Shown here: piece after piece, positions 44,144 through 64,000 of the stretch
Layout: each line of letters opens with the position of its first letter
How positions within the stretch are numbered: the stretch's first letter is position 1
NCBI RefSeq assembly: GCF_030499515.1
Contig: NZ_JASTWJ010000001.1
Coordinates: 9,838,001-9,902,000, forward strand
Direction of reading: 5' to 3'
DNA: 64,000 nucleotides
Source: Streptomyces sp. DT2A-34
GTDB lineage: Bacteria; Actinomycetota; Actinomycetes; Streptomycetales; Streptomycetaceae
Translations under genes and position numbers: made by a program
Notes under the pieces: model-generated
The model's input: the letters and a program-made list of their open reading frames with translations, nothing else
What the model was told of the DNA's origin: nothing
Databases searched by the model: none

Positions 44144-45100
44144 TCACCGTGGGGAACTCAGTTGTCGGGGCAGCGCAAAGTACTGGTGTTCTTCGGCGGC
44201 GGTGACGGTGGACACGTCCTCGTAGCCGCGGGCGGCCAGCCACTGAAGAACCTGGTCGACCAGGGTGTCGGGGACTGAGGCGCCGGAGGTCACGCCGACC
44301 GTGGAGACGGCCTCGAGCCAGGCATCGTCGGCCTCGTGGGCGCAGTCGATCAGGTATGCCTCGCGGGCGCCGGTCAGCTTGGCGACCTCGACCAGGCGCT
44401 TGGAGTTGGAGGAGTTGCGTGAGCCGACCACGATCACCAGATCGGCCTCGGCGCCCACCTGTTTCACCGCCGCCTGACGGTTCTGCGTGGCGTAGCAGAT
44501 GTCGTCGCTGGGCGGGCTGATGAGCTGCGGGAACTTGTCCTTCAGAGCGCCCACGGTCTCCATCGTCTCGTCCACGCTCAACGTGGTCTGGGAGAGCCAG
44601 ACGACCTTCGACCCATCACGGACCACGACGTTCGCGACGTCTTCGGGGCCGTCGACCAGGGTGATGCGGTCGGGAGCCTGTCCCAACGTACCGACGACTT
44701 CCTCGTGGCCCTCGTGTCCGATGAGGAGGATGTCGTAGCCATCACCCGCGAACCGGACGGCTTCCTTGTGAACCTTGGTGACCAGTGGGCACGTCGCGTC
44801 GATCGCCTTCAGCTGCCGTGCGGCGGCCTCCTGGTGGACGACGGGGGCCACGCCGTGCGCGGAGAACAACACGAGGGACCCCTCGGGAACCTCCGCGGTC
44901 TCCTTGACGAAGATGGCGCCCTTCTCCTCCAGGGACTTCACGACGTGCTTGTTGTGGACGATCTCGTGCCGTACGTAGACGGGCGGGCCGTAGATTTCCA
45001 GAGCCTTCTCCACGGCCTGGATGGCGCGGACGACGCCGGCGCAGAAGCCGCGCGGGGCGGCGAGCAACACCCGCTTACGGCCTGGGGAGGGTGCTGTCAT
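44144..45100 (-). CDS. ispH: 4-hydroxy-3-methylbut-2-enyl diphosphate reductase (cluster copy)
   Basis: 318 residues. The three [4Fe-4S] cysteines are in [17 protein letters not shown] (C20), [16 protein letters not shown] and [17 protein letters not shown]. Other landmarks are [18 protein letters not shown] and [15 protein letters not shown] with [13 protein letters not shown]. It is the last MEP enzyme, making IPP and DMAPP. The start overlaps the prenyl-synthase stop (ATGA). Streptomyces normally carry a housekeeping ispH elsewhere, so this is probably a dedicated precursor-supply copy. Confidence 0.95.
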
Positions 45101-46257
45101 GAGGTCCTCCAGGCGGCCTGCTGGGCCAGCTCGCGCAGGCGTGTGTCCACATGCGCCGGCAGGTGTGCGCGGTCCAGGGCAGCGAGGGCTTGTTCGTACC
45201 GGTCGGTGATCATCCGTTCGATTGCTTCGCGGGAGCCGGCGTGAGTGATGATGCGGCGTGCGACCTCGGCCTGGTCCTCCGTGAGGGTGGGGCAGCCGAG
45301 CAAGAGGCGGAGCTGGTCGGCTCGGGCGCGGGTGGCGTGGGTGAGGGTGTGGGCGATCAAGGCAGTGTGTTTGCCCTCGCGCAGATCGTCCAGGCGCGGT
45401 TTGCCTGTCTCGGTGGGTGTGCCGAACACGCCCAGGAGGTCGTCGCGGAGCTGGAATGCCTCTCCCAATGGCAGGGCGAACGCGCTGAGTTGGTCCAGGA
45501 CGTGCGTGTCGGCTCCGGCGAGGGCGGCGCCGATCTGCAGGGGCCGCTCGAGGGTGTACTTCGCGGTCTTGTAGTGGACGATGGCCAGGGCCCGGTCCAT
45601 GTCGGCGCTGGGGCGTCCGGTGGCGGTCAGGTCGAGGTACTGGCCGTAGATGACTTCGCTGCGCATGGTGTCGAACAGTGCACGCACCCGCGGCCAGAAC
45701 CCGCTGGGGCCCGGGTCGGCGGTGTGCAGGAGTTCGTCTGTCCATACGAAGGCGAGGTCGCCAGCCAGGACCGCGGCGCCTGCCCCGATGTCCTGGCCCT
45801 GTTGCGGACTCCGGCCTGTGCGGTGGCGCTCGGCCATGACCCGGTGGACGGTGGGCTGTCCGCGGCGGGTGTCGGAGTGGTCCATCACGTCGTCATGGAC
45901 CAGACAGAACGCGTGGAACACCTCCAGCGCCGCCCCCACCCGGACGGCCATATCACAACTGCCTGTACCGCCAGCGGCGTGCCAGCCCAGCACGCACAGC
46001 ACCGGGCGAATCCGCTTGCCCCCGGCCGCCAGGAACCGCGCCAGTGCCGCGGGCAGCTCGCCGGGCAGCCCCAGCCGGTGTGCCTCGCTGGTCTTGGCCT
46101 GCGCGAAAGAACTCACGACGGCTTCAATGCGGCGGCGCACCTGAGACACATCCAGCCCAGCCGCCCCCTCGTACGGTGCGGCAGCCTGAGCGGGGACTTG
46201 GGGGGTGAGGGCACGAGTGCGGTCGGCCCCCGGATCCGCGGGTGCGTGCTGAACCAT
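45097..46257 (-). CDS. Polyprenyl (geranylgeranyl) diphosphate synthase
   Basis: 386 residues. The first Asp-rich motif is [18 protein letters not shown] (DDxxD preceded by FHAFC), the second is [13 protein letters not shown] (RDDxxG). [19 protein letters not shown] and [13 protein letters not shown] are also typical of class I trans-prenyl transferases. The residues before the first motif ([15 protein letters not shown]) have medium-size side chains at positions -4 and -5, as in GGPP/FPP synthases; a C20 product fits the diterpene cyclases. Start at 46257 lies four bases after the FAD oxidoreductase stop. Confidence 0.92.
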
Positions 46258-46261
46258 GCGA

Positions 46262-47623
46262 TCACTTCCGGGTGTTGGGCTGGCGCGCAAGGAAGGCCCT
46301 GCGCAGGACGGCTGGTGCCATGAGTGCCGTCGGTGCGTCACGCATGTGCTGGACGCGGGCGAAGCGGCGATAGAGGTCGGGGTCGGTGGGAATGAGCTGG
46401 AGAAGGCGGCCCAGGTACCAGTGCGCCATACGGGCAACCAGCCGCATGCCGTTGCTCTCCCAGGCGAGGTCCGAGCTGGTCGCCATGAGCCAGGGGATGC
46501 GGATGATCCGGGCGGCGCGGCTCTGGAACTGCCGGGCGGACTCGCCCCGGCCCAGCGAGACGCCGAGGGCTTGCGCCTGCAGTGCGGCAACGGTCAGCCC
46601 CTGGCCGTAGATGGGGTTGAACAGGCACAGGCAGTCCCCGAGAGCGACCAGCCCGGTGGGCCAGGCGTGGTCACGGTGCAGCAGACGCCAGCGGTTGCCG
46701 TGGTCGACGAAGCGGTGTGCCCTATTCAAAGGCGTATGGGTCTTGAGGTAGTCGGCCGCGCAGGAGTCGGGCAGGCTCTCAGCGAATGCCTCAAAACCCG
46801 TGTCGCTGATGTCGCACTTCTCGCCGTCAGCCCCGCAGAGGGTCACCAGGCAGCGGCCGTGCTCCACGGTCACCACCCCCCCTGCCCGACGTCGGTCGGG
46901 GGCGTAAGCGAGGACGGCACGTGCAGTGAACCCCTCGTCAGGGTGCCCGTCGTACAGCCTTGTGGTGTACGCGACTTCGGCGGCCACCCTGCGCTCTGCC
47001 GGGGACGGGATTCCGGCGTCGGCGAGCCACTTGGGCAGCTGGGGACCGCGCCCGGTGGCGATCACGACCAGATCTCCCGTGAAGTCCCGGGGGGTGCCCT
47101 CGTGCCGTCCCCGTACGCCGCGGACCGCGCTCTCGCTGCCCTCGGCCACCACCAGTGCGTCGACGGTGAAGTCGCTGATGAGTTCCACGTTCGGCAGTTT
47201 CAAGACCCGGCGGCGTACCTGCTGTTCCAGAAAGGGGCGGCTGAGTGACTGCACCGAGATACCCGTCGTGGTCTGTGGGGTCCAGCCGGACGGCAGGAGG
47301 AACCGCATCGCCTCGCCGAAGTCCACCATCGGCACCCCGTTGGCCGCCATCTCTTCGCGTACACCGGGACACAGTTCCTCGAGGGTCAAGGCTCCGCGTT
47401 CGAGGAGGTAGTGGGCGTGGTAGCTCTGCGGGGTGCCGCGCCTGAACGTGGCCTCGTCGGTGATGGTGTCGCGTTCCAGGAGGGTCACCTGGGCGAAGTG
47501 GTCGGCCAGGACGCGCGTGGCGAGCAGGCCGGCGAATCCGGCGCCGATGACGATGGCGTGGTCACGTCGTGACGGTGTGCCGTGCCGGGCCTTGCGGGAG
47601 GCGGCCAGCCGTGCGAGAGACAT
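46262..47623 (-). CDS. FAD-dependent oxidoreductase/monooxygenase of terpene cluster
   Basis: 453 residues with a Rossmann ADP-binding start (AIVIGAGFAGLLATRVLADH), FAQVTLLERDTITDEATF, and FAD motif TGLVALGDCLCLFNPIYGQG followed by LTVAALQAQALG. The layout is of the geranylgeranyl-reductase/aromatic-hydroxylase (GR2) class. In terpene clusters such proteins serve as epoxidases, reductases or tailoring oxygenases. It is translated almost together with the prenyl synthase. Exact reaction unknown. Confidence 0.85.
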   Translation of the reverse strand: MSLARLAASRKARHGTPSRRDHAIVIGAGFAGLLATRVLADHFAQVTLLERDTITDEATFRRGTPQSYHAHYLLERGALTLEELCPGVREEMAANGVPMVDFGEAMRFLLPSGWTPQTTTGISVQSLSRPFLEQQVRRRVLKLPNVELISDFTVDALVVAEGSESAVRGVRGRHEGTPRDFTGDLVVIATGRGPQLPKWLADAGIPSPAERRVAAEVAYTTRLYDGHPDEGFTARAVLAYAPDRRRAGGVVTVEHGRCLVTLCGADGEKCDISDTGFEAFAESLPDSCAADYLKTHTPLNRAHRFVDHGNRWRLLHRDHAWPTGLVALGDCLCLFNPIYGQGLTVAALQAQALGVSLGRGESARQFQSRAARIIRIPWLMATSSDLAWESNGMRLVARMAHWYLGRLLQLIPTDPDLYRRFARVQHMRDAPTALMAPAVLRRAFLARQPNTRK

Positions 47624-47770
47624 GATGGTCCTTTCCCGGCAGTCGATCAGCCGTTGCTGTAGCGGGGATTGGCGGTCGTGCCTTCCTGCCAGCCGTGGCC
47701 GGGGTCCGTGTCCCGGCTACCACAGCCGGTCCCCGGGGAGGGTGTAGCGATGTCCCGTCGCCGGGGGCGG

Positions 47771-48900
<1,130 letters not shown>

Positions 48901-48904
<4 letters not shown>

Positions 48905-50748
48905 CGCAACGCCTCCTGGGCTGCGAAGGACGAGCCGGTGGCCGGAGGCCGTGGAGCGTGGGCTGCCTGGACGGCGCGGGCGATCCCGGCGGCGTCGAGT
49001 CCGGCCTGGGCCAGCAGACCCGTACGCGGACCGTGGGCGATGAACGAGCGGGGAAGACCGAGCGCCTCCACCGGTGTGCTGACCGCCTGGGTTTGGCATG
49101 CTTGGTCCAGGGCCCAGCCGAGTCCGCCGGGGAGTACACCGTCCTCGATACTGACCGCGAGGTCGTGACGGTCCGCCAGTGCCGTCAGTGCGGGGTTGAC
49201 CGGCAGTACCCACCGGGGGTCGGCGACCGTGACCCCGATGCCCTGCTCCTCCAACAAGGCCGCGGCGTCCAGGGCTGCTCCGGCCAGCGGGCCGGCTCCG
49301 ACGAGCAGGACTTCCAGGGGGCGGTGGGGGCTGCGGTGCAGGATGTCGATCCCGTCCATCCGCGCCAGCGCCGCGATGTCCCGCGATGCCGTGGCCTTCG
49401 GGATCCGCAGCGCGGTGGGCCCTTGGCCGTGGGCGACGGCCTCGCCCAGCAGTTCCTGTACCCGTGCGGCATCGCGTGGGGCGGCGACCCGCAGGCCCGG
49501 CACCGTCGACAGCAACGACAGATCCCACATGCCGTGATGGGAGGGTCCGTCGGGGCCGGTGATGCCGGCCCGGTCCAGGACGAAGGTGACCGGGAGGCGG
49601 TGCAGGGCGACGTCCATCAGGACCTGGTCGAAGGCCCGGTTGAGGAATGTGGCGTAGAGGGCGATCACCGGGTGCAGGCCGCCCATCGCGAGACCTGCGG
49701 CCGAGGTGACGGCGTGCTGTTCGGCGATGCCGACGTCGAAGACCCGCTCAGGGAAGCGTTGTTGCATCGGGTACAGGCCGGTGGGTCGCAGCATGGCCGC
49801 CGTGATGGCCACCAGATCGGGCCGCTCAGCGGCGAGCTCGGCCAGCGCCCGGCCGAACACGGTCGTCCACGTCGGCAGGCCGCCACCGCGGGAGCGTCCG
49901 GTGGCCGGGTCCACGGTGCCGACGGCGTGCAGGCAGTCCGCCTCGTCCTCCTCCGCGGGGGCGTAGCCCTTGCCCTTGACGGTCACCACGTGCACCAGCA
50001 CCGGCTGGTTGAGGGTTCGGGCCCGCCGCAGCACACCCTCAAGATCCCCGGTGCTGTGCCCGTCGACGGGCCCGAAGTAGGTGAAGCCGAGATCGGTGAA
50101 CAGGTTCCGGCACGCTGCCGCGTCCTTACCGGACTTGAGCGTGTGCAGGTGGTGGGCCAGGGCGCCGTGGGTGGGTTCGTAGGAGCGGCCGTTGTCGTTG
50201 AGTACGACGATCACGGGCCGGTCCCGGGCGGCGCCGAGGTTGTTCAGCGCCTCCCAGGCCATACCGCCGGTCAGCGCGCCGTCGCCGATGACCGCGACCA
50301 CCGCCCGCTCCTGCTCGCCGGACAGCTGGCGAGCCTTGGCCAGGCCGTCGGCGTAGGACAGGGCGGTGGAGGCGTGCGAGTTCTCCACCAGGTCGTGTTC
50401 GGACTCGGCCCGTGAGGGATACCCCGACAGGCCGCCGGCCTGCCGCAGCGAGCCGAACCGTCCGGCACGGCCGGTCAGCAGCTTGTGGACGTATGCCTGA
50501 TGACCGGTATCGAAGATCAGGCCGTCACGGGGCGAGTCGAAGACGCGGTGCAGGGCGAGGGTCAGTTCCACCGCACCCAGATTCGGGCCCAGGTGCCCGC
50601 CCGTCGCGCACACGCGCTCGATCAGAAACGACCGCAGCCCGGCCGCGAGCCGGTCGAGCTGCGGCGCCGACAGGTCCCGCAGCTGCGCTGGATCCGGGAT
50701 GCGGCAGGAGGCTTCTGCCTGGACCGGTGTGGCCGATAGATGCGCCAT
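48901..50748 (-). CDS. dxs: 1-deoxy-D-xylulose-5-phosphate synthase (cluster copy)
   Basis: About 615 residues starting [23 protein letters not shown]-binding [16 protein letters not shown] and [20 protein letters not shown], the central [20 protein letters not shown] (catalytic Glu) and [20 protein letters not shown] are diagnostic. It condenses pyruvate and glyceraldehyde-3-phosphate, the first and rate-limiting MEP step. It is the first gene of the terpene unit, with AAGGAA before the ATG; a longer in-frame start at 50847 lacks similarity. A duplicate dxs is a common sign of isoprenoid clusters. Confidence 0.95.
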
Positions 50749-51692: not shown

Positions 51693-53033
51693 ATGCCGCG
51701 CACCGCCAACATCCAGCTCAAGCTCTTACTGCAGGCGGCCGGCTGGGGCCCCACCCAGTTCGCCGCCGCCCTCCGCAACGTCGCCGCTGAGCAGGGCCTG
51801 ACGCTGGTCGTCCATCTCACCACGGTGCGGCGCTGGCTGGAGGGCACCCAGCCCCGGCCGCCGCTACCCGCTCTGATCCTCGAATGCCTCTCCCGCCGCC
51901 TGGACAGGCGCATCACGGCCCACGAGGCTGGTCTCACCCGAGCCCCGGCCCAACTCGTGGATCCTGCCTGGGAGGCCGACCCCATGCGCAAACTCATCCA
52001 CCTGGCCCAAACCGAACTCGACCCGCACCGACGCGCCCTGCTCGGCGCGGGCGTCCTCACGGCCACCGCACTCGCCCTGCCCGCCCAGGGCCAGATCCCG
52101 GCAGCACCCGACGGGCCAGGGCACTCCGGCCGCCGCCTCGCAGAGCGCGACCTGGAGCGACTGCGGACCATGGCCTCGGTGTTCGCCGCCTCGGCCGACC
52201 AGCACGGCGGCCAGCACGTGCGCGCCGCCCTGGCCGCCTACCTCACCCACGAGGTCTCCCCCCTTCTGCACCGCCCGGCCCGTACCCAGGTGCACCACGG
52301 CCTGCGGGCCGCCACCGCCCGGCTCGCCCTGCTGCTGGGCTCGATGTCCGCCGACAGCGGCCACCACGCCGTAGCCCAGCACTACCACCAGATCGCCGCC
52401 CGCCTCGCCGCTGACGCCGACGACCCCACCACCCTGGCCATCGCGCTGCGCACCATGGCCACCCACGCCCACGACCTCGGCCGGCACACCCCCGCCGTCG
52501 TGAACCTCGCCGAACGGGCCGACCGGCATGCCCGGCACGCGCCTCCCGCCGTCCGCGCCTACACCCACGTCCACCTGGCTGTGCTCAACGCCCACCACAA
52601 CCGGCACGCAGCTGTGAACGCCCTGGTTCGCGCGGAACTCCTCCACGCCGAGGACAGCGCCGAGCCGGGCCCCTTCAGCAGTTACCCGGTCGGCGCCCTG
52701 CACTACCAGCGTGCCCAGGTGTTCGCCACCCTCAAGGATCACACCGGCGCCCTCACTGCACTGACCACTTCCCTGCGCCTGCGCACCTCGGCCGAACGCC
52801 TGCCCGCCGCACTCACCCGTGCCCGGCTGGCGGAAACCCACCTACGCCTCGGCCACCTCGAACCCGCCCTCACCCACTGGCACGCTTTCCTCGACGCCTA
52901 CCCCACCCTCCGCTCCGTGCGCGCCGACCAGCGTCTGACCGCAGCGGTCCAGCACCTGCGGCCCCACCAGCGCCGTGCCGGCGTCACCGATCTCCTCGAT
53001 CGCATCACAGAGCTGACCAGTCCGCCCCGGTGA
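51693..53033 (+). CDS. HTH/TPR-type regulator
   Basis: 446 residues from the ATG at 51693 with GGGAGG five bases upstream. The first ~75 residues form an HTH (LLLQAAGWGPTQFAAALRNV, HLTTVRRWLEGTQPRPPLPA), as in Streptomyces orphan regulators. The rest is alpha-helical with tetratricopeptide-like repeats: RATMASVFAASADQ-type helices, then HYHQIAARLAADADDPTTLA, YTHVHLAVLNAHHNRHAAVN, LHYQRAQVFATLKDHTGALT and AETHLRLGHLEPALTHWHAF. This architecture often binds peptides or partner proteins. It lies next to the terpene cluster and before the RiPP-like locus; its target is not evident. Confidence 0.82.
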   Translation: MPRTANIQLKLLLQAAGWGPTQFAAALRNVAAEQGLTLVVHLTTVRRWLEGTQPRPPLPALILECLSRRLDRRITAHEAGLTRAPAQLVDPAWEADPMRKLIHLAQTELDPHRRALLGAGVLTATALALPAQGQIPAAPDGPGHSGRRLAERDLERLRTMASVFAASADQHGGQHVRAALAAYLTHEVSPLLHRPARTQVHHGLRAATARLALLLGSMSADSGHHAVAQHYHQIAARLAADADDPTTLAIALRTMATHAHDLGRHTPAVVNLAERADRHARHAPPAVRAYTHVHLAVLNAHHNRHAAVNALVRAELLHAEDSAEPGPFSSYPVGALHYQRAQVFATLKDHTGALTALTTSLRLRTSAERLPAALTRARLAETHLRLGHLEPALTHWHAFLDAYPTLRSVRADQRLTAAVQHLRPHQRRAGVTDLLDRITELTSPPR

Positions 53034-54006: not shown

Positions 54007-54252
54007 ATGCAAGAGGACACGACGATACGCGTTTCGATCCCATACCTCGGTCCACGAGAACAGCCACGACCTGTCTTTCCGCGAAGCCTGATCAATCCGA
54101 TTCGCGCACGAATCGGCCGGCGCTGTACGTCGTGCGCGAAGGTTACGAACGGGCAACGGTTCCCGTCCTTCGCTGAGACACCAACTCACTCGGCCCGAGG
54201 CAGATCATCCTTGGGCCTCACCTGGGACTTGGTGAGACAGGAGGGGGTCTGA
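54007..54252 (+). CDS. Small hypothetical protein
   Basis: 81 residues from an ATG at 54007 with GGGGAG six bases upstream. Sequence begins MQEDTTIRVSIPYLGPREQP and continues with RRCTSCAKVTNGQRF, with a CxxC. The frame is open further upstream to 53875. Base composition is lower in GC than the neighbours (runs such as ATACGCGTTTCGATCC), suggesting an acquired segment. I do not recognise it; it adjoins the acetyltransferase of the RiPP-like locus and converges on it. Confidence 0.45.
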   Translation: MQEDTTIRVSIPYLGPREQPRPVFPRSLINPIRARIGRRCTSCAKVTNGQRFPSFAETPTHSARGRSSLGLTWDLVRQEGV

Positions 54253-54336
54253 GACATGCGAGCTGTTCATAAGATCGACCGGTCGGCACAGCCTGGTCGG
54301 CACAGATTTGGACGTGCATCGACCGCAAATGATCAG

Positions 54337-55125
54337 TCAGACAAGTCCTGGACGATCCTGGGGGAGCACTACGGTGCGTGTGCTCCCCGTGTGAAAGAAG
54401 CCCATCCGTTCGAAAAGCAGCCGGGCGGGATTCCCGTTGGTGACGGACAATCCGACGTCTGTCTCGCCAGCCTCTGCGGCATGTGCGACGGCCCATCGCA
54501 TCAACACGGCGCCCAGACCCGTGTACCGGGGCAGCGGGTCGCGGAACAGATCGGTGAACCAAGGCCCTCGGTGCGATGGAGTCCCGTCATGGCGGTTGAC
54601 CGTGACGGCTGCTACGACCCGCGTCTCCTCCAGCACCACCGCACTGCAGTCCAGGAGGGCGCCGTAGCGCGTACCGTCGAGAAGTCCCTGTAGGCGGCCG
54701 ACACTGCCGGTTGCCCTGTCCGCCCCGTGGTCCGGGTGCCCTGGGCGGTAGGCAGCCTGCCGCGTGGCTACCAGGTCCTGCGCGCTCATGGTGCTCGCAG
54801 CCACCAGACGAAGGCGCGCCGGCAGCGTGGGCGCACCCCAGTCAGAATTCGGCCGACGCAAACCAAGATCCCACCTGTAGTGGTGGGCATACCGCACTGA
54901 GCACGCCCCGGCCAGCAGCAAGTCCGCGCCCAGGTTCTCGTCCGTCGTCACCGTCCAACCGGGCAACCGGTCCAGCAGCAGAGGGACGATGCTGCCGGGG
55001 TGCCCGCCGACAGTCCGCAACGCGTCGGCCCAGGGACGCTCGTGGCTCTGACCCGGCACGTACTCGGCGGCCGGACGGCCGGCCTCATCCAGCAGTACCT
55101 CGCGCTCGGGTGACACCGCCGACAT
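54337..55125 (-). CDS. GNAT-family N-acetyltransferase
   Basis: 262 residues. The C-terminal half is a GNAT domain: AVVLEETRVVAAVTVNRHDG, WFTDLFRDPLPRYTGLGAVL, then MRWAVAHAAEAGETDVGLSV and TNGNPARLLFERMGFFHTGS, with the acetyl-CoA loop YTGLGAVLM. The N-terminal ~110 residues (LRTVGGHPGSIVPLLLDRLP, GWTVTTDENLGADLLLAGAC) form an extra domain, possibly a degenerate GNAT repeat. The ATG overlaps the stop of the 66-residue peptide gene (ATGA), so they are translated together. In a RiPP setting it could acetylate the peptide or a precursor, or provide self-resistance. Confidence 0.82.
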   Translation of the reverse strand: MSAVSPEREVLLDEAGRPAAEYVPGQSHERPWADALRTVGGHPGSIVPLLLDRLPGWTVTTDENLGADLLLAGACSVRYAHHYRWDLGLRRPNSDWGAPTLPARLRLVAASTMSAQDLVATRQAAYRPGHPDHGADRATGSVGRLQGLLDGTRYGALLDCSAVVLEETRVVAAVTVNRHDGTPSHRGPWFTDLFRDPLPRYTGLGAVLMRWAVAHAAEAGETDVGLSVTNGNPARLLFERMGFFHTGSTRTVVLPQDRPGLV

Positions 55126-55325
55126 CACTGCGCGTCCCTGTCCGCGGGGAGCGGACTGTCCCCGAAGCCAATCCCGCCGTTCACGGTGTCCGCCTGAATC
55201 ACCGTGGTCCAACGCTCCAAGGCCCCCGCGAAGTCGTCGTTCCGCGCCGCTTCCTCGAGAATGAGCCCGGCGAAGACCCGCACCTGAGCAGGATCCTGCG
55301 GATCCACGGGTAGCGCGTCCACCAT
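55125..55325 (-). CDS. 66-residue acidic small protein, candidate precursor peptide
   Basis: Starts MVDALPVDPQDPAQVRVFAG with GGGAAGGGGAGCC in front and ends GGIGFGDSPLPADRDAQ. The first 45 residues would form an amphipathic, acidic leader-like helix (LILEEAARNDDFAGALERWT), followed by a Gly-rich tail without cysteine. Its stop overlaps the GNAT start. No family recognised. Size, leader/core-like layout and coupling to a modifying-enzyme gene suggest a RiPP precursor or a small partner protein. Confidence 0.6.
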   Translation of the reverse strand: MVDALPVDPQDPAQVRVFAGLILEEAARNDDFAGALERWTTVIQADTVNGGIGFGDSPLPADRDAQ

Positions 55326-55505
55326 GGGCTCCCCTTCCCTCTCCGGCCCATTCAAAGTAGCGATTCTCGACTGCCTTGGACAGAAGTCGAAGCCGGTGCC
55401 CCGGCCGGCCTGAGGCGTGGAGTGGCGAAGGAGCCCTACGGGTAGTCCCATGGCGGTCGACCGGCAAGGTTCCGCATCATCCGCTTCCGATCGCGAGGGC
55501 ATGGC

Positions 55506-56402
55506 ATGGGTACGGATTCTGTGGACGCCGCGCTGGCCTCTCTGCGTGTCGATGACAGGTCGATCAGGCTTGACTGCCCGGGTGAGTGGTTGCGGATGCA
55601 CCGGCACCGACTGTCGGTGTGCGGCGTGCATGTGGCGACGCCGGAAGAGGTGGCACACGGAGGATTCGCGGAGCATGCGATCGTGCCGGATGCGCCTGTG
55701 CCGCTGACAACCAGGTGGTTCGAGCGCATCACGCCATTCCTGGCGGCTCCCGAGACGCCCGCAGGCCTGTGTGTCGGCTTCGGGAGACTGAGCCACTCCC
55801 ACCACCGGGTGGTGGCCGCCGCCTCGGAGGAGGCCACCAGGCCGGACTTCGTACCCCACTACGGTTCCCGCTACGCGCTCGGCTCGCATTCGGTTCGGCT
55901 GGTGGATGTGCTCACGGCGCGGGGCGGCACGCGGACCACCTCGGTGATGGACCCGCGCATCGCACCGTATTCCGAGCCCACGGTGGCCCGTTGGGTGGGC
56001 ATGCACTACGACAACGCCTGGACCAGTCACGGCGAAGGTGAGCGCTATCCCCGCGACGTTCGTGTTGCGTGCGCGGATCGGCGCGTCATTCACAACCTGG
56101 GGCCGGGTGCCCGGTCACTGGTCTTCGCACTGAACATGTCTGCCTTGCATCTGTCGGACAAGGTCAGTCCCGGCGACAGCCGGAATGTACCCAGCACCAA
56201 GCAGCTCCGTGAATTCCTGGTCGAACACCCGGCTGAGGTGTTGAAAATCGTGTGCCTCGTCTGGACAGCCGAGGTGGGAGATCTGGTCGTCCTGCCTGCC
56301 GGACTCGCACTGCATGACGGGTCGATGGAGGGTCGCCGGCATTCGTCCAGCGCCTTGGTCTTCGCCGGAACATTTCCGCGGGGTGCGTTCTCCTGGACAT
56401 GA
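55506..56402 (+). CDS. Putative 2-oxoglutarate/Fe(II)-type oxygenase
   Basis: 298 residues, not assignable to a named family with certainty. A facial-triad-like pattern is visible: H167 and D169 in VGMHYDNAWTSHGEG, then H270 in VVLPAGLALHDGSMEGRRHS, with arginines 277/278 after it; the order HxD...H...R is that of Fe(II)/2OG dioxygenases. The segment RRVIHNLGPGARSLVFALNM fits the double-stranded barrel core. Divergent from the 66-residue peptide/GNAT pair (180-base gap) and convergent with the radical-SAM pair: its TGA directly abuts the stop of the 62-residue peptide. A peptide-hydroxylating role is inferred. Confidence 0.6.
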   Translation: MGTDSVDAALASLRVDDRSIRLDCPGEWLRMHRHRLSVCGVHVATPEEVAHGGFAEHAIVPDAPVPLTTRWFERITPFLAAPETPAGLCVGFGRLSHSHHRVVAAASEEATRPDFVPHYGSRYALGSHSVRLVDVLTARGGTRTTSVMDPRIAPYSEPTVARWVGMHYDNAWTSHGEGERYPRDVRVACADRRVIHNLGPGARSLVFALNMSALHLSDKVSPGDSRNVPSTKQLREFLVEHPAEVLKIVCLVWTAEVGDLVVLPAGLALHDGSMEGRRHSSSALVFAGTFPRGAFSWT

Positions 56403-56591
56403 TCAGGAGTCGGGGCGGCTCCACGTCTGGCTCATCGACTGGAACTTGTGGAAGACGAGGCCACCGTCGCGATCGGGCGGGGTGGTGCCCCGAGGTATCG
56501 GCCGCAGCAGCCATTCGAGGTGCTCCGCCTCAGCGAGCAGAATCACGTCGAGATTTGGTTCCGGAGTGTTTTGGCTGGTCAGGATTGGCAC
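56403..56591 (-). CDS. 62-residue peptide coupled to radical SAM gene, candidate RiPP precursor
   Basis: A GTG at 56591 overlaps the last 13 bases of the radical SAM gene and has AAGGAG nine bases in front. The N-terminal part MPILTSQNTPEPNLDVILLA has a leader-like hydrophobic/acidic stretch (LAEAEHLEWLLRPIP). The C-terminal tail contains VFHKFQSMSQTWSRPDS, with aromatic-x-x motifs FHK, FQS and WSR. Triceptide (cyclophane) maturases link an aromatic residue to the side chain two positions on, as in W-S-K of darobactin, so this tail is a plausible core. No family recognised; assignment is by position and motif. Confidence 0.6.
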   Translation of the reverse strand: MPILTSQNTPEPNLDVILLAEAEHLEWLLRPIPRGTTPPDRDGGLVFHKFQSMSQTWSRPDS

Positions 56592-57694
56592 AGCAGCGCT
56601 CCTTCAGTCTTCGCTTGATGGAGGTTTCGGCAGAAATTCGTTTCGGTACCATCGAGCCGTCCAAGCTCGAAGTACTTGTTCGCCGGCCAGCTTCCGCCAC
56701 AGGCGACGGCGTAGCGGCAGGTCCGGCGACACGCGTCCACACCGGCGAGGGCTTCGCGGACCCACGGAACCGAGCCCGCCGTGCGCAGAAGATCCTCAAG
56801 GGAGTTCCGCAACACGTTGCCCACCGTGAAAGCCCCATGCCTCGGATGTCGGAAGCCCGCGAGATCTGGGGACATGACAGTCACCTCTCCGTTGTACGAC
56901 ACAGTAGGAATGGGCTCCACGGGCATACTCAGGACCTCCGCTGCAGTGATCCCCGATCGCACCGCGTCGTAGCAGTTTGCGACCGACTCAAGTTCCCGCA
57001 GCCGCACCACTGGGTTCGCCCGCCACTGCGTGAAGAGTTCGGCGAAGAAGCCCGCCCATTCGCATTTGTCTGTCGGCGAGCCTTCACCATGGGAACCCTT
57101 CGTTTCCTCGGGGAGGATTCCCAGTACTTCCGCTCCGATCTCGCAGGCGTGGACGTAGAGCAACCGAGCGACCTCGGGCGCGGGATCGCGCACCACGGAA
57201 AGCACGTGAAAGGGGGTTCCATGGCGCCTTAACACCGCGATCCCGGCCGCAATCCTCTGCCAGGCGGGGGCACCCCCGCGTGTGACCCTGCCCGCGTTCA
57301 TGCCCCGTGGCCCGTCGATGCTCACGGACACCCGAACGTGGTACCGGTCGAACAGGTCGCACCATGCCTCATCGATCAAGGTCGCATTCGTCTGGATGTG
57401 ATGAGCGGTGCCGGGAGGCCAGTCGGAGAGTAGGTCCTCGAATTTCCGGACACCGACTGTGAGCGGCTCTCCCGCGTGCCAGAGGACCTCCATCTGGTGC
57501 CCGGAGTCCATCCAGCGGGCCGCGGACTCCGCGGCTGCACGATTGACGGCGGCCGACATGTCGAGGCGCTTCCCCCGGTCGGGCAGGTAGCAATATGTGC
57601 AATCAAGATTGCACAAGGTTGTCGGCTGCATCACCAGGACGGACGGTCGCCGCCCGAGAGCCGCCCCGCTGTCACCGCCGGACGCGGAATCCAC
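56579..57694 (-). CDS. SPASM radical SAM peptide maturase (cyclophane-forming type)
   Basis: About 371 residues. The SAM-binding cluster is C28-x3-C32-x2-C35 (TTLCNLDCTYCYLPDRGKR). The C-terminal SPASM region has C322, C326, C332 and C355 in VDACRRTCRYAVACGGSWPA and NKYFELGRLDGTETNFCRN; the CGG-PANKYFE-G-DGTET signature is characteristic of GrrM/triceptide-type maturases. VLWHAGEPLTVGVRKF and VSVSIDGPRG complete the radical SAM barrel. The start is placed at the GTG at 57694 because AGGAGG lies six bases before it; a GTG at 57700 abuts the site. Downstream a small peptide gene overlaps its stop, implying an enzyme-substrate pair. Confidence 0.85.
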   Translation of the reverse strand: MDSASGGDSGAALGRRPSVLVMQPTTLCNLDCTYCYLPDRGKRLDMSAAVNRAAAESAARWMDSGHQMEVLWHAGEPLTVGVRKFEDLLSDWPPGTAHHIQTNATLIDEAWCDLFDRYHVRVSVSIDGPRGMNAGRVTRGGAPAWQRIAAGIAVLRRHGTPFHVLSVVRDPAPEVARLLYVHACEIGAEVLGILPEETKGSHGEGSPTDKCEWAGFFAELFTQWRANPVVRLRELESVANCYDAVRSGITAAEVLSMPVEPIPTVSYNGEVTVMSPDLAGFRHPRHGAFTVGNVLRNSLEDLLRTAGSVPWVREALAGVDACRRTCRYAVACGGSWPANKYFELGRLDGTETNFCRNLHQAKTEGALLCQS

Positions 57695-58345
57695 GCACAC
57701 CCTCCTACGGTCATCGCACAGGGAGCCTTGTCATGGAACGGTGGCGCAGCCGAGCCTGTCAATGGCGCCGTCAGCAAGGCGGTGTGGAGTGCGAGGGTCC
57801 GCTTCTCCACTGCCCGGGACCACTGGCTTCGCGCTCGTGCCCCTGGAAGACCTCGGTCACCCCGACGCGGTCGACGTGAGGGCCGATCTGGTCGGCCCCT
57901 GATCGGGATCCGGCTGGCCTGCCCGGATGAATGAGTCCGATGTCTGGGCCGGCCGAGCCCAGGGCGAAGCGGGTCCGTCCGCTCGTCTGTGACGACAGAT
58001 CTGGCCGTGCTACTGGCGGAACTGTATGTGTGCATCACGACCGATGGAGCCCTGTCTCACCGCCATGGGCACGGGTGTTGTCGGAGCGGAAGTACATCTC
58101 CGCGAGAGCTTCGGCAGCGATGCACTGGAGCTGCTGCTGCTGCTGCTGCTGCTCGCTGGCGTCGGCGTCGCGGGCCTCGAAGAGGCGGCCTGCCCAATTG
58201 CGGGGTAGGGCCTGGGTGATGTCGCGGATGCGGGCGTCGTCGGTTGTGCCCCGGCGCGGCGGTGAACCCGAAGCGGGCCCGGGGTGGAGACGACCAAGCC
58301 GTCCGTGGATGGGGCATGCAGGGCAGGGGCCTTGCCCGCGTCTGT
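57695..58345. other. No clear gene; includes a (CTG)7 tract
   Basis: About 650 bases without a gene I can defend. A minus-strand frame carries RIRDITQALPRNWAGRLFEA, a run of seven glutamines and CIAAEALAEMYFRSDN, which looks like the tail of a real protein but has no identifiable start. The glutamines come from seven exact CTG units (58131-58151, plus-strand reading). Confidence 0.45.
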
Positions 58346-58745
58346 CTACGGCAGGACGTCCAGCGGGGAGAGACTGGCGGAGGGGTGGACGATGCCGTCC
58401 GTAGCAATCGCGGCGGGGTAGCGGCCGGTCACGGCAGCAGTCTTGAGGATGTTGCGGCGCATTCCGAACCCGACCGCGGCCAGTACGGCGGCCCGGAGTC
58501 CCATCGCGTACGACCCACGGTCGGGGTGGCGTACCGGGCCGGTCGGTCGCCCTTCGGCGTGAACGGGCTGGGGAGCCGGTCGGCGTCGAGTGTGCGGCTG
58601 CCGTCGATCCGTATGCGGGCGCGGTCGACATGGGAGAGGTCGACCAGCCACAAGTCGGGGCAGTGACGGGTCGAACGTGGGGTTGCCGGTGAGGTGGGTG
58701 AGGCCTTCACAGCCGGCGTCGCCGACAAGTTGCCCCGGCCAACAC
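58346..58745 (-). pseudogene. Tap-like (telomere-associated protein) relic
   Basis: The minus strand holds LTHLTGNPTFDPSLP, then in another register LWLVDLSHVDRARIRIDGSR, DADRLPSPFTPKGDRPARYA and TPTVG, then in a third register MRRNILKTAAVTGRYPAAIA and TDGIVHPSASLSPLDVLP. This order matches the C-terminal half of Streptomyces Tap-type proteins (VDLSH, LPSPFTP, YPLAVLSDCAVYPSPGPSPLDFLP). The intervening 100+ residues between TPTVG and the last block are deleted. Tap proteins bind telomere DNA of linear replicons; this relic hints at a past linear plasmid or chromosome-end origin. Confidence 0.6.
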
Positions 58746-58823
58746 CAACCCCAGCCGCTACAACGGATGTTGGGAAGGCGCATTTCGCGGACATCGACCG
58801 TCAAAGGGCGGTTTGATGGCCCT

Positions 58824-59300
58824 GTGCGGCGGTGGAGGAAATACGCGCTCGTCGCGTGCGCAGCCGTGTGCGAGACAGCGGCCGTGTGTTTGGTGGCATT
58901 CGCAATCTCCACGCATCCGGCGACCGCGGACCGGCTTGGCAGCGTGATCGGGGCGATCGCAGGGCTCGTGGGCTTGGCGGTCTCGGCGTGGACGCTCGCC
59001 GGTTCAGGGCGTTTCTCTGCCGAGGCGCATGATGGTGCCGTAGCGTCAGGCGGCCACGTGGGGCGTGTCCTCGTCGGCCATCACAACGAGGCAGCGCCAC
59101 GCGCAGTCCCGGCGCGCGCTCCAGCCAGCCCTCGAGTGGCAGCGTGCGTGCCTCGGGAGCATGCGGCACAGCTGCCGCAGGAGTGCGCCGGCAGTGGCCG
59201 CCAAGCTCCGTCGGCTGCGGTACGTCAATTCGCCACTGTTCCAGATCGGCGGGTCTGTTCGGACCTTCCGGAATCCGGTGAGGACCTGTTGGGATGCTGA
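58824..59300 (+). CDS. Small membrane protein upstream of STAND/TIR gene
   Basis: 158 residues from a GTG at 58824. Two predicted membrane helices: YALVACAAVCETAAVCLVAF and LGSVIGAIAGLVGLAVSAWT, separated by a short loop. The rest is Ala/Arg-rich and cytoplasmic. It ends 14 bases before the big ATPase-TIR-TPR gene, so co-transcription is likely. Small two-helix membrane proteins often accompany such STAND proteins in Streptomyces. I do not recognise a family. Confidence 0.55.
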   Translation: MRRWRKYALVACAAVCETAAVCLVAFAISTHPATADRLGSVIGAIAGLVGLAVSAWTLAGSGRFSAEAHDGAVASGGHVGRVLVGHHNEAAPRAVPARAPASPRVAACVPREHAAQLPQECAGSGRQAPSAAVRQFATVPDRRVCSDLPESGEDLLGC

Positions 59301-59314
59301 GTGGGAGGCCGACC

Positions 59315-62300
59315 ATGACCGACGAGGGCACAGGCAGGATCATCACCTTCTACTCGTACAAGGGCGGCACGGGGCGGACGATGGCGCTGGCCAACACGGC
59401 CTGGATCCTGGCCTCCTCGGGCAAGAGCGTCCTGGTGGTCGACTGGGACCTCGACGCTCCGGGTCTGGACCGCTTCCTGCACCCCTTCCTGAGCGAGAGC
59501 CAGCTGCGCTCCACGCCGGGGGTGCTCGAACTGGTCAGCCGCTCCACCCAGTTCATGCTCCAGGCCCTGAACATGGCCGAGCAGACGCGTCAGCTCGAAC
59601 TGGATTCCGAACTGTCGGCCGCGGCCGACGCCTGGGCGAGCGACGGGATCGCGCTCAACAGCTGCCTCATCCAGGTCGACTGGGAGTTCCCCGAGGGCGG
59701 CCAGCTCTCCTACCTCCCGGCCGGCACGAAGAACAAGGGCTACCTCTCGGCGTTCTCGCAGTTCAACTGGAAGCCCTTCATGGACGGGCCGCCGGCGACC
59801 AGGTTCCTGGAAGGTCTCAAGCGCGAGTTCGTCGAGAACTTCGACTACGTCCTCATCGACAGCCCTACCGGACTCAACGACATCTCCGACATCTGCACCG
59901 TCAACCTGCCCAACGTTCTCGTCACTTGCTTCACCCCCAGCAGCCAGAGCATCGAGGGCGCGGCCGGCGTCGCCGAACGCATCGACGGGATGCTGTACGG
60001 CAACCGGGACATCAGGATCCTGCCCGTGCCCATGCGGGTGGAGAACGCCGAGGCGGACCGGCTGAACGCCGCCCGGGGACAGATCCAGTACCGCTTCGAC
60101 CGGATCGTGCGCAAGCACATCACCGACCGGGACCCGGAGGACTACTGGGGAAGCGTGGAGATCCCCTACCGGCCCATCTACTCCTACGAGGAGACGCTCG
60201 CCCCGTTCCGCGAGCAACCCGGGGACCCCAAGAGCCTGCTGGCCGCCTACGAGAGACTCACCGAGGTCATCACGGACGGCCGGGTCGTCTCGATACCCCG
60301 AATCGACGAGACGCTGCGCCGCAAGACCCTCGACCGGTACACCCGCCACCGCCCGCCGCGCATCTCCGACGTCTACGTCAGCTTCGTTCCCCAGGACCGG
60401 AGTTGGGCCAACTGGGCGGGCGCGGTTCTGGAACAGGCCGGTTTCAGGGTCTGCCTGGCGCAGGAGGGTACGGCCGAGGGCGCCCAGGGCGGGGACGAGA
60501 TCGAAAGCGGCGTCGAGTCGGCCTCTCGCACCCTGGTCATCTTCTCCGAGACCTACCTGAGGTCGTCCCGCTTCCGCACCACCTGGGAGGCGGTCCACGC
60601 GGAGGGCGACCGGCGCTCGCACCAGCTGGTCTCGATGCAGGTCGACCGGATGCTGTCACTGGACGCGCCCTTCACGGAACAGCTCGCCGACATGACCCGT
60701 TGCGACACCGGAGAGGCGGCCCGTGAGGCCCTGCTGGCCGCCTTCGGCCGCACCCCGGAGTCACTGACGCGCAATCACTTCACCGGGGTCGAGTCGAAGC
60801 TGCCCCGCTACCCGGGCGCTGAACCTCCGGTCTTCGCGGTCCCGATGCGCACGTCGTCCTTCACCGGACGGACGGAGCTGCTGGAGGGCGTCCGGGAGAA
60901 GCTGTGGAGCGAGGACAACCGCGCTCTCGTGCTCAAGGGCATGGGCGGCGTGGGGAAGACCTTGTTGGCCCAGGAGTTCGCCTACCGCTACAAGAGCGAC
61001 TACGACGTCATCTGGCACATCCAGGCCGAGCAGAGGCTCCTGGCCGTCGAGCAGTACGCGGCCATGGCCGAGCAACTGGGTTTGCCCGTGCGGACGAATC
61101 CCACCGACACCGCCAAGGCGGTGTACGAAGCGCTCAACCACGGTGAGCCGTACGGCAGTTGGCTGCTGATCCTCGACAACGTCACGGAGGCCGGCTACCT
61201 CCCCGAGTTCATGATGGACGGCCGGGGTGGCCACATCCTGATCACCAGCCAGCGCGCCGAGGGCTGGGGACGTCTCGTGGACACCGTCGACGTCCCCGTG
61301 TTCGAGCGGGACGAGAGCATCGCCCACCTGCACAGCCGACTGCCCGACTGCGGCTGGACGGAGGCCGACCAGATCGCGGAGGCCCTGGGTGACCTGCCGA
61401 TCGCGATCTCACGCGCCGCGGCCTATATCGAGCAGACCGGAGTCGACGTCCGCAGCTACATCAAGCAACTCCAGCCCCAGGCCACCGGAGCCCCGGACGA
61501 CAACACGGTCGGCGAAGTCGTCAGTTCGAGCACCTACACCTGGGAGCTCGCCCTCGGACAGCTGAGGGAGAAGTTCCCGTCCGCGGTGAAGCTCCTGCAG
61601 ATCTGCTCGTACTACAGCCCCGAGCCGATCTCCATGGATCTGCTGGAAGGCTTCGAGGTTTCCCGGGCACTCGGCGGGGTCCGCACGGTCTCCCGCGCCT
61701 ACAAGGAGCTGAGCAGGTTCTCCCTGGTCACGGTGGACCGCGGGACCCGGAGCGTGACGGTGCACCGGATGATGCAGATCGCCATGCGGGAGGAGATGAC
61801 CGACGCGGAGCGCGAGGCGGCGCAGGAAGTGGTGTACCGCTCGCTGATCGCCGCCAGGCCGAGCGGTGACGACCCCGAGAACCCCAACACCTGGGAGAAG
61901 TACCGCATCATCTGGCCGCATCTCGGCACCCCGTGGGCCCAGACCACGGCCGACGAGGGCATCAGGGAACTCTTCGTGGACCGGGTGCGCCAATTGCGCC
62001 GTCGTGGCGAGCTGTCCCAGGCCATGGACTACAGCTGCCGGCGCGTGGACGCCTGGTCCGCGGGGGGCTCGCCGGACGAACGCTGGACGCTCCACATGCG
62101 TTTCCAGATCGCCAACATCCTGCGCGCCCAGGGCATATACGAGGAGTCATTCTCCCTCGACCAGGAGGTCCTGGAGCGACAGCTCGCCGTGCTCGACGAC
62201 GTGGACGACCAGCACATCCTCATGACCACCGGTAGCATCGCGGCCGATCTGCGGGGCCTCGGCCGGCTGACGGAGGCACTGCGGTACGACGAGGAGACGT

Positions 62301-63307
62301 ACCAGAGGTACGAGCTCATCTACGGTGAGGACCACGCGCGCACCCTCAGCGCGGCCAACAACCTCGCGGTCGCCCTACGCCTCTCCGGCGACTGCTACAG
62401 GGCCCGCGAACTGGACCGCAGCACGCTGGAACTGCGTGAGGCGATCCAGCTCCACGACCATCCGCTGACCATCGAGTCCGCGGTGAACCTCGGCCGCGAC
62501 CTGCGTGACTGCGGTGACTACGAGGAATCCGTCACCCTGCTGAAGCGCGCCTACGAGCGCTGTCTGCGCAACCCTCGTCTCACCCAGGGCTCACCCACCG
62601 TACTCAACACGGCCAAGGGGCTGGCCGGTTCACTGCGCGCGGCGGGCCGGCCGGTGGAGGCCGAGGAACTCGTGCGCCACGTGCTGCGGAGCACGCCCGA
62701 CGGCGAGAACGGGTCCTCCGCCGACAAGCTGCTGCTGGAGATGAGCCTGGCCGGCGACCTGGCCGCCCAGGGACGTCTCGACGAGGCGCTGGCCCTGATC
62801 CGCGGGGTCCGGGACGGTTTGAGGGACAACCTGGGAGAGGGCCACTCCCACACTGTGGCCTGTTCGGTCAACTACGCGGTCCTGCTGCTCGGTGACGTCG
62901 AGGCCATTCACCCGGAGTCGGCGGCCGAGGCACGGGAGTTGCTGCGCCGGGCCCAGGAGCAGTTCAGCGATCTCCACGGCGAGTACCACCCCCATGTGCT
63001 GATCTGCCGCGCGAACCTGGCGGTCGCGGAAGCGGCACTGGGGGAGGGGGAGGAAGCCCGACGGGACTGCTCCGAGGCGTACGAACTCCTCAAGGAGATC
63101 CTTGAGCCCACGCACCCCTCGACCCTGACCTGCGCGGGGAACCTCGCCGTCATCCTCAGCCGCCTGGGCCGGGCGGACGAGGCCCGCACCCAGCACCATG
63201 ACGCGCTGGCCGCGCTGAGCAAGCGCATCGGCAGGGAGCACCCACGGGTGCTGTCCCTCCAGGAGTGGGATCTCAGCTGCCTCGACCTGGAGCCGCACCC
63301 GATATAG
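59315..63307 (+). CDS. KGGxGR ATPase-TIR-NB-ARC-TPR protein (FxSxx-COOH-system type)
   Basis: 1330 residues from the ATG at 59315 (GGGAGG upstream). Domains in order: N-terminal MinD/ParA-like ATPase with FYSYKGGTGRTMALANTAW (residues 12-30) and VVDWDLDAPGLDRFL; a TIR-like domain at about 349-485 (SDVYVSFVPQDRSWANWAGA, LVIFSETYLRSSRFRTTWEA); an NB-ARC/STAND NTPase with LKGMGGVGKTLLAQEFAYRY (P loop at 542-549) and WLLILDNVTEAGYL; then TPR repeats to the end (AANNLAVALRLSGDCYRARE, LTCAGNLAVILSRLGRADEA). This matches the FxSxx-COOH-system tetratricopeptide protein type. Signalling or immune-like NLR function is inferred. Confidence 0.85.
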   Translation: MTDEGTGRIITFYSYKGGTGRTMALANTAWILASSGKSVLVVDWDLDAPGLDRFLHPFLSESQLRSTPGVLELVSRSTQFMLQALNMAEQTRQLELDSELSAAADAWASDGIALNSCLIQVDWEFPEGGQLSYLPAGTKNKGYLSAFSQFNWKPFMDGPPATRFLEGLKREFVENFDYVLIDSPTGLNDISDICTVNLPNVLVTCFTPSSQSIEGAAGVAERIDGMLYGNRDIRILPVPMRVENAEADRLNAARGQIQYRFDRIVRKHITDRDPEDYWGSVEIPYRPIYSYEETLAPFREQPGDPKSLLAAYERLTEVITDGRVVSIPRIDETLRRKTLDRYTRHRPPRISDVYVSFVPQDRSWANWAGAVLEQAGFRVCLAQEGTAEGAQGGDEIESGVESASRTLVIFSETYLRSSRFRTTWEAVHAEGDRRSHQLVSMQVDRMLSLDAPFTEQLADMTRCDTGEAAREALLAAFGRTPESLTRNHFTGVESKLPRYPGAEPPVFAVPMRTSSFTGRTELLEGVREKLWSEDNRALVLKGMGGVGKTLLAQEFAYRYKSDYDVIWHIQAEQRLLAVEQYAAMAEQLGLPVRTNPTDTAKAVYEALNHGEPYGSWLLILDNVTEAGYLPEFMMDGRGGHILITSQRAEGWGRLVDTVDVPVFERDESIAHLHSRLPDCGWTEADQIAEALGDLPIAISRAAAYIEQTGVDVRSYIKQLQPQATGAPDDNTVGEVVSSSTYTWELALGQLREKFPSAVKLLQICSYYSPEPISMDLLEGFEVSRALGGVRTVSRAYKELSRFSLVTVDRGTRSVTVHRMMQIAMREEMTDAEREAAQEVVYRSLIAARPSGDDPENPNTWEKYRIIWPHLGTPWAQTTADEGIRELFVDRVRQLRRRGELSQAMDYSCRRVDAWSAGGSPDERWTLHMRFQIANILRAQGIYEESFSLDQEVLERQLAVLDDVDDQHILMTTGSIAADLRGLGRLTEALRYDEETYQRYELIYGEDHARTLSAANNLAVALRLSGDCYRARELDRSTLELREAIQLHDHPLTIESAVNLGRDLRDCGDYEESVTLLKRAYERCLRNPRLTQGSPTVLNTAKGLAGSLRAAGRPVEAEELVRHVLRSTPDGENGSSADKLLLEMSLAGDLAAQGRLDEALALIRGVRDGLRDNLGEGHSHTVACSVNYAVLLLGDVEAIHPESAAEARELLRRAQEQFSDLHGEYHPHVLICRANLAVAEAALGEGEEARRDCSEAYELLKEILEPTHPSTLTCAGNLAVILSRLGRADEARTQHHDALAALSKRIGREHPRVLSLQEWDLSCLDLEPHPI

Positions 63308-63534: not shown

Positions 63535-64000
63535 ATGGCCAGCATCCTCGTCGGCCGACGACGTGAAGTGCTGCTCCTGTCCTCGGGCCCTGTCCTCGGG
63601 GCGGCCGTGGGCGCGGTGACCAACCTGGTCACCTCCACCTGGAGTTGGTGGCTCTTCGGCGCGCTTCTGGTGCTGATCTCCCTCGCCTCCGCCGGCGCCG
63701 CCCTGGTGCCCGGCAGTGGTTCCAGCGGTGTCGGCTCCACCTACCAGAACCCTCCTTGCACCCTTCCCCCGGGCACCGCGGTGTTCGCCGGGCGTGACCG
63801 GGAACTGCGCAGACTCCTCGACGCCCGCCCGCCCAGAAGCGGCTCCCGACCCCTTGTCTGCATCATCACGGGCCGGTCGGGCAGCGGCAAGACGGAGTTG
63901 GCCGTCCAGGCCGCGCACCTGCTCGCGGAGCGGTACCCGGCGGGGCAGCTCTTCCTCGCCTACCGCAGCCACGCCGATCCGGCCGGCCGGATCGACCCGC
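63535..64000 (+). CDS. Membrane-anchored STAND NTPase (3' end outside window)
   Basis: An open frame from the ATG at 63535 runs off the right edge with about 155 residues visible. Two hydrophobic segments come first (LLLSSGPVLGAAVGAVTNLV, WWLFGALLVLISLASAGAAL). Then FAGRDRELRRLLDARPPRSG leads into a P loop VCIITGRSGSGKTELAVQAA and LLAERYPAGQLFLAYRSHAD, as in NB-ARC/STAND NTPases. It follows the TIR-TPR protein by 230 bases on the same strand. Only the start is visible; a TPR or WD repeat tail would be expected. Confidence 0.7.
   Translation, partial: MASILVGRRREVLLLSSGPVLGAAVGAVTNLVTSTWSWWLFGALLVLISLASAGAALVPGSGSSGVGSTYQNPPCTLPPGTAVFAGRDRELRRLLDARPPRSGSRPLVCIITGRSGSGKTELAVQAAHLLAERYPAGQLFLAYRSHADPAGRIDP

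Follow-up and report, generated by a model that had tools for sequence, protein, structure and literature searches.

What does a small peptide-modifying cassette of Streptomyces do beside genes for STAND switch proteins? The question is raised by the last fifth of a 64,000-nucleotide stretch of Streptomyces sp. DT2A-34 (contig NZ_JASTWJ010000001.1, positions 9,838,001 to 9,902,000), here called the window, in which genes for a radical S-adenosylmethionine (SAM)/SPASM maturase, a short peptide, a putative Fe(II)/2-oxoglutarate (2OG) oxygenase and a GNAT-family acetyltransferase lie together. A sequence-only reading had proposed a locus for a ribosomally synthesised and post-translationally modified peptide (RiPP) with two precursors. 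Our comparisons favour, with a probability of about 0.7, a RiPP cassette of triceptide type that belongs to a new AmcB-like subfamily and is coupled to STAND proteins. The maturase, one precursor and the iron/2OG-type oxygenase of the earlier proposal stand; its second precursor does not. Its gene set mostly holds, and it had missed a deleted STAND gene and a neighbouring gene for FxsT, the effector of the FxSxx-COOH cyclophane peptide systems.

The window was compared with five further loci, which together with it make up the six loci referred to below. These came from a scan of named genomes (the best 80 of 512 relatives, so that further close loci may exist): Streptomyces phaeofaciens JCM 4125 (L051, maturase identity 89%), SID12501 (L052, 89%; genome G323), NRRL WC-3645 (L053, 83%; genome G295), NBC_01481 (L054, 78%) and Kitasatospora MBT63 (L055, 63%). 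The cassette in the window consists of the following features.

56579..57700, minus strand: radical SAM/SPASM maturase, 373 residues, AmcB-like, apparently a subfamily of its own (NF041718, PF04055, tree clade)
56403..56591, minus strand: precursor peptide, 62 residues, N-terminal leader and C-terminal core (six of six loci, nine homologues, ratio of non-synonymous to synonymous substitution, dN/dS)
56415..56459, minus strand: core of this peptide, residues 45-59, LVFHKFQSMSQTWSR (15 aligned rows)
55506..56402, plus strand: MicC-like Fe(II)/2OG-type oxygenase, 298 residues, convergent with the precursor gene (9vkm profile match, invariant motifs)
55125..55325, minus strand: open reading frame (ORF) of 66 residues, doubly deleted form of a protein of ~141 residues (aligned with L051 and L052 as DNA and by codon)
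54337..55128, minus strand: GNAT-family acetyltransferase, 263 residues, optional member (PF00583; homologues in the S. phaeofaciens and Kitasatospora loci)

The maturase and its precursor

The maturase carries the motif CNLDCTYC and, by eye, the C-terminal SPASM cysteines CRRTCRYAVACGG...NFC; it adjoins a peptide gene and matches PF04055 above cut-off (47.1 bits), which bears out its earlier assignment as a SPASM-type radical SAM enzyme. The best NCBIfam match is the AmcB model NF041718 at 391.8 bits; with the same model, 441.1 bits were obtained for an AmcA_1-linked maturase and 492.3 for an AmcA_3a-linked one. With the FxsB model the maturase reaches 87 bits against a cut-off of 370. In a tree of 50 rows (49 distinct) the maturases of the six loci form a single clade, with support of 96/100, separate from those clades that go with precursors of other types. 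Judged by its scores and by this tree, the maturase is a new AmcB-like subfamily. Relatives at E ≤ 1e-60 are present in 29 of 392 genomes of the genus, close ones in three only: the window's own, SID12501 (89%) and NRRL WC-3645 (83%). Samples of the family and the class, 394 genomes each and both overlapping the genus sample, added at E ≤ 1e-110 one maturase at 63% and one at 51%. The window maturase was not called by the gene finder written for the analysis, probably owing to its low GC content at third codon positions (0.76), and the cassette genes were placed by homology instead. We note that AmcB-like genes of other clades adjoin CEECG..CxHAxTLYSG-type small ORFs in L039 and L041, and that an AmcB-like clade is paired with TAxIFGWA-type small ORFs in L033 and L035; the two scored, those of L033 and L039, matched no NCBIfam model.

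Maturase and 62-residue peptide lie side by side in all six loci, including that of Kitasatospora with its maturase of 63% identity. The 13-base overlap of the two genes, read earlier from the sequence, agrees with the ORF coordinates. It had also been argued that a maturase kept without its small ORF would speak against a RiPP; for this peptide the pair is complete in 6/6 loci. The database holds nine homologues, all of 59-62 residues and seen as proteins only. Values of dN/dS range from 0.27 to 0.78 and are below 1 in 15/15 pairs. For the core, dN is 0-0.13 against dS of 0.24-1.26 among the window and four Streptomyces loci, rough values drawn from few sites; the leader is more variable, dN exceeding dS in one pair (L054, L055).

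In an alignment of 15 rows, where P0006 and L051 represent the same peptide read from two starts, F47, F50, S52, M53, Q55 and W57 are invariant and R59 is kept in 14. The conserved core thus contains, at F47, F50 and W57, the aromatic-X-X motifs by which triceptides are recognised. Candidate rings are F47-x-K49, F50-x-S52 and W57-x-R59; Phe-Ser and Trp-Arg links appear among the known triceptide crosslinks (PMC11002830). Position 49, which completes the first motif, is occupied by K in 11 rows, by A in three and by R in one.

The oxygenase and the genes around it

The oxygenase gene converges on the precursor gene, its last base (56402, plus strand) abutting that of the peptide (56403, minus strand), just as the sequence-only reading described. 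It is intact in five of the six loci, the Kitasatospora copy being a remnant (47% identity over 30 residues, E = 1.4e-6, and 62% over 26), and dN/dS is 0.18-0.35 (10 pairs). A 24-row profile found a single PDB chain at E ≤ 10, that of MicC (9vkm, an alpha-ketoglutarate-dependent non-heme iron oxygenase), with E = 1.6e-10. MicC is known to us by its PDB molecule name, our literature search having found no paper or pathway for it. Residues H162, D164, H265, D266, G267 and S268 (P0010 numbering), which belong to the motifs HxDN and HDGS, are invariant in the 24 rows, as is GPGxR; HxDN and HDGS are common to MicC, and the invariant motifs hold also in seven aligned relatives from loci with FDNRPTWDN-type precursors (24-27% identity). 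H162xD164 and H265 supply the HxD...H triad of Fe(II)/2OG enzymes. None of the 24 members matched a Pfam oxygenase family at E ≤ 10, a stray BRK match being seen in four only. These data support an iron/2OG-type oxygenase whose family has no name in the Pfam copy searched.

The 31 maturase matches in the genus sample led to 20 enlarged loci, two of them close loci and 18 others. A relative of the oxygenase (26-30%, BLAST) is present in all ten fetched loci with FDNRPTWDN-type precursors, the one precursor scored among the ten matching NF041721; in the remaining eight of the 18, a search up to five genes from the maturase showed none.

The 66-residue ORF had been taken for the second precursor. 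Its homologue in L051 and L052 has ~141 residues, and two in-frame stretches of it are deleted in the window. No match was found in L053, L054 and L055 except for 12 residues in L054 at E = 0.010; three of the six loci thus keep the maturase without this ORF, the very pattern held to tell against a precursor. Its conserved tail, VIQAxxxxGGIxF, has a single F and no W or Y. When the six loci were scanned in all six frames, the motif [VI][VI]QAxxxxGG[VI]xF occurred in the 66-residue family (three places), at the N-terminus of NB-ARC proteins (four places) and nowhere else. That both small ORFs are precursors of one maturase would fit their size, their position beside modifying genes in the window and the dN/dS of the 66-residue ORF (0.22-0.35 across 65-66 shared codons). 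This reading was nonetheless rejected as highly improbable, since the ORF is absent from three loci and belongs to a protein of ~141 residues in two; its tail, an NB-ARC protein motif, argues the same way. The ORF is probably a shortened partner of a STAND protein.

The ORF does overlap the acetyltransferase gene by four bases, as had been noticed, the overlap being GTGA and not ATGA: the window's ATG is ACG in both L051 and L052, so that the shared acetyltransferase start is GTG. The acetyltransferase matches PF00583 with 23.4 bits (gathering threshold 20.7). Its inclusion in the gene set is correct for the window, but as an optional member and not a constant partner: homologues at E ≤ 1e-10 are found in three of the six genomes (window, S. 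phaeofaciens and Kitasatospora), each within the cassette. In SID12501 only the first 15 residues match, and at the end of this match (L031:4391-5571, minus strand) lie genes that we take to resemble an insertion sequence (IS) transposase. The L053 cassette has, beside the oxygenase and in the same position, an AAC(3)-type gene that is unrelated to GNAT (162.9 bits, cut-off 270); relatives of it (53-55%) lie between FxsB and FxsC in 3/11 fetched FxsT loci. The acetyltransferase slot would thus appear to be fillable by different folds. AAC(3)-type genes stand inside FxSxx-COOH operons at L146:14607-15425, L147:3356-4222 and L148:4709-5584.

STAND proteins beside the cassette

Three further features of the window lie on the far side of the maturase.

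57800..57899, plus strand: remnant of a STAND NB-ARC/TPR gene, ~34 terminal codons split over two frames (tblastn with residues 586-619 of the L051 protein)
59315..63307, plus strand: FxsT, with MinD-like ATPase, TIR, NB-ARC and TPR parts (NF040586, 835 bits over a cut-off of 300; also NF047398, PF13676, PF00931)
63535..64000, plus strand: HaaT-like TPR protein of 840 residues, start only, continuing beyond the window end (NF041717, 319.5 bits, under the cut-off of 1125)

An NB-ARC/TPR gene is divergent to the maturase in four of the six loci (L051, L052, L054 and L055; 53-89% identity to L051), the L052 match ending ~120 bases short of the contig end. The L051 protein, minus its first ~100 residues, scores 288.7 bits with HaaT (cut-off 1125) and 330.1 with AfsR (cut-off 1430). 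In the window the gene is deleted to the remnant listed, and beside the L053 cassette no NB-ARC gene divergent to the maturase was found. The ~1.4 kb between remnant and FxsT (57944-59306) gave no blastn match in L051-L055 and contains a CTG-repeat tract near 58130-58152.

The reduction of the NB-ARC gene to ~34 codons and the two in-frame deletions in the 66-residue ORF could mean that the window copy is a decaying cassette, its STAND gene deleted and the partner shortened while the rest is still present. Maturase, precursor, oxygenase and acetyltransferase are, however, all open, with dN/dS against S. phaeofaciens of 0.18, 0.54, 0.18 and 0.32, pairwise values that cannot date a loss. We regard such decay as doubtful.

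Close FxsT, defined at E ≤ 1e-250, occurs in 13 of the 392 genus genomes, and the surroundings of all 13 were inspected. Ten have the arrangement FxsB-FxsC-FxsC-FxsT. One (G139) has FxsC pieces and, within the 16 kb seen, neither FxsA nor FxsB; in the window and NRRL WC-3645 this cassette takes the place of the Fxs genes. FxsA was located by tblastn in 7/11 FxsT loci without the cassette and was not found within the window; the FxsA model TIGR04268 gave no match in the window's genome or in the controls and is uninformative. Genome-wide, FxsB (E ≤ 1e-80) and FxsC (E ≤ 1e-10) are absent from the window's genome and from S. phaeofaciens; NRRL WC-3645 has no FxsC and only a 40% relative of FxsB, and the control genome G228 was positive in both searches.

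FxsT lies beside the cassette in three of the six loci (window, S. phaeofaciens and L053), the L053 cassette being on the opposite side of FxsT and its 840-residue follower. Within the genus sample the two co-occur in two genomes, the cassette being present in three and FxsT in 13 (hypergeometric 0.003); when the window's genome is left aside, FxsT is found in one of two cassette genomes (0.06). A strict partnership was considered and rejected as not obligatory, because most genomes with close FxsT lack the cassette and some with the cassette lack close FxsT.

It could be argued that this is an ordinary triceptide natural-product locus, with STAND and FxsT genes as chance neighbours on an island. 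Eight of the ten genomes with an FxsT at least 64% identical have no close maturase (FxsT identity in these eight 64-92%), SID12501 has the cassette without close FxsT, and both L053 and the window are without an intact divergent NB-ARC gene; as window, L051 and L053 have the pair of FxsT and 840-residue protein in common, the FxsT linkage may be one inherited event. Chance does not readily account for NB-ARC/TPR orthologues placed divergently in four loci, another genus included, with a remnant in the window, nor for the N-terminal motif that the 66-residue family shares with the NB-ARC protein, nor for the co-occurrence of FxsT and cassette, which adjoin in two different arrangements. We therefore consider chance neighbourhood unlikely and prefer coupling to STAND proteins. 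A more specific proposal, that FxsT lost FxsA-FxsB-FxsC and that an unrelated AmcB-like maturase with a different precursor, also bearing an F-x-S ring motif, took over as supplier, is somewhat improbable in our estimate.

Elsewhere in the window, an NsdA-family TPR regulator is encoded at 51693-53033 on the plus strand (NF053720, 291.8 bits over 75), and the minus-strand block at 44144-50748 resembles what we take to be methylerythritol phosphate (MEP) isoprenoid genes (IspH, IspG, DXS), perhaps a terpenoid cluster.

Proposed pathway and known systems

Taking gene order, conservation, purifying selection and family relations as observed, we infer the following chemistry and interactions. The maturase would, very probably, bind the leader of the 62-residue peptide (LLAxAExLEWLL) and join aromatic side chains to the residue two positions on, giving up to three small rings, of which F50-x-S52 is the most likely, the others being W57-x-R59 and F47-x-K49. 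In triceptides such a link is a C-C bond from a ring carbon to a C-beta. The crosslinked core would then probably be oxidised by the MicC-like iron/2OG enzyme, presumably by side-chain hydroxylation. Where present, the acetyltransferase might acetylate the peptide on a lysine or on its newly formed N-terminus, either to complete it or as self-protection, a step that we put forward tentatively. The product could act within the cell on a STAND NTPase, as its signal or effector: in relatives on the divergent NB-ARC/TPR protein, in the window on the neighbouring FxsT. For this we would offer slightly less than even odds.

Several observations weigh against a triceptide cassette coupled to STAND proteins. 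The maturase falls short of the curated NF041718 cut-off of 425 bits. The 62-residue peptide matched no NCBIfam family at E ≤ 1, thus no AmcA model, and homology of its leader to that of AmcA, with an hhalign probability of 1-2%, was too weak to claim. Variation at position 49 means that the F47-x-K49 ring may not form. Oxygenase homologues number 19 and those of the peptide nine, both as protein-only matches. In Fe(II)/2OG oxygenases the distal His is usually followed, at a distance of about ten residues, by an Arg; none is invariant there in the 24 rows, in which R187, R188 and R198 are invariant and R287 nearly so. The acetyltransferase is missing or cut in three of the six loci, the genes common to the loci showed neither a peptidase nor an exporter, and the window's cassette shows wear. 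As the window has lost the STAND gene and the L053 cassette has none beside it, the coupling is not obligatory. SID12501, NBC_01481 and Kitasatospora have the cassette with FxsT relatives of 34-38% only, those of SID12501 (34-37%) lying elsewhere in the genome.

Triceptides themselves are known; new here, on the comparisons made, are the maturase subfamily, the precursor core and the oxygenase family. The cassette extends the triceptides by a subfamily that has a core of its own, and it contributes an oxygenase family outside the Pfam copy searched. The proposed coupling to STAND proteins and the apparent exchange of partners at FxsT are the most interesting part. If the link is real, the role of cyclophane RiPPs attached to AP-ATPase/TPR proteins becomes a testable question, for which two kinds of STAND protein (NB-ARC/TPR, FxsT) and two kinds of peptide (FxsA, the 62-residue peptide) are available for comparison. 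If the exchange is real, cyclophane peptides would be small ligands able to replace one another in gating the STAND immunity proteins of bacteria.

No description of the cassette was found in the literature searched, subscription papers being outside its reach, and a search for AmcA/AmcB by name returned nothing relevant among the matches listed. AmcA/AmcB (NF041718; NF041721, NF041722, NF041723) provides the closest maturase family. There, too, the precursor overlaps the maturase end, and a relative of the cassette oxygenase is encoded where the precursors are of the FDNRPTWDN type. The cassette differs in its core, FHK FQS WSR in place of FDNRPTWDN or AWNHFENIP, and in a maturase clade of its own with GNAT and NB-ARC partners; a pentapeptide-repeat gene was not seen in it. 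Such a gene, weakly like Qnr/MfpA and below cut-offs, is found in one FDNRPTWDN-type locus (L036:10636-11310), and nine others have a gene of similar appearance for 223-230 residues; a gyrase-linked role for FDNRPTWDN-type peptides would be a guess.

Kaur et al. 2020 (PMC7159879) report systems in which peptide processing is linked to AP-ATPase/TPR proteins and in which a radical SAM-SPASM gene serves FxSxx peptides; the peptide is proposed to be a toxin or signal, and a GCN5-like acetyltransferase domain is named among conflict-system effectors. Radical SAM/SPASM genes with AP-ATPase/TPR proteins, one kind of which has a MinD-like part, recur in our cassette. Section 24 of the paper differs in having a metallopeptidase and FxSxx-type peptides; the terms GNAT, 2OG and 2-oxoglutarate do not occur in its main text, and in the passages covered the acetyltransferase is given no link to the peptide. 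In HaaA/HaaB/HaaT (NF041717), too, a cyclophane RiPP has an NB-ARC/TPR protein as neighbour; the L051 protein is far under the HaaT cut-off and scores higher with the AfsR model, and maturase and precursor are of another type. The FxSxx-COOH system (FxsA, FxsB, FxsC, FxsT) differs from the cassette in that the window's genome is without FxsB and FxsC at the thresholds used, and in that the F-x-S of the cassette peptide is internal, with S52 ten residues ahead of the C-terminus, instead of C-terminal. The two have FxsT and the F-x-S motif itself in common, together with the AAC(3)-type genes seen in one cassette locus and in three of the eleven fetched Fxs loci.

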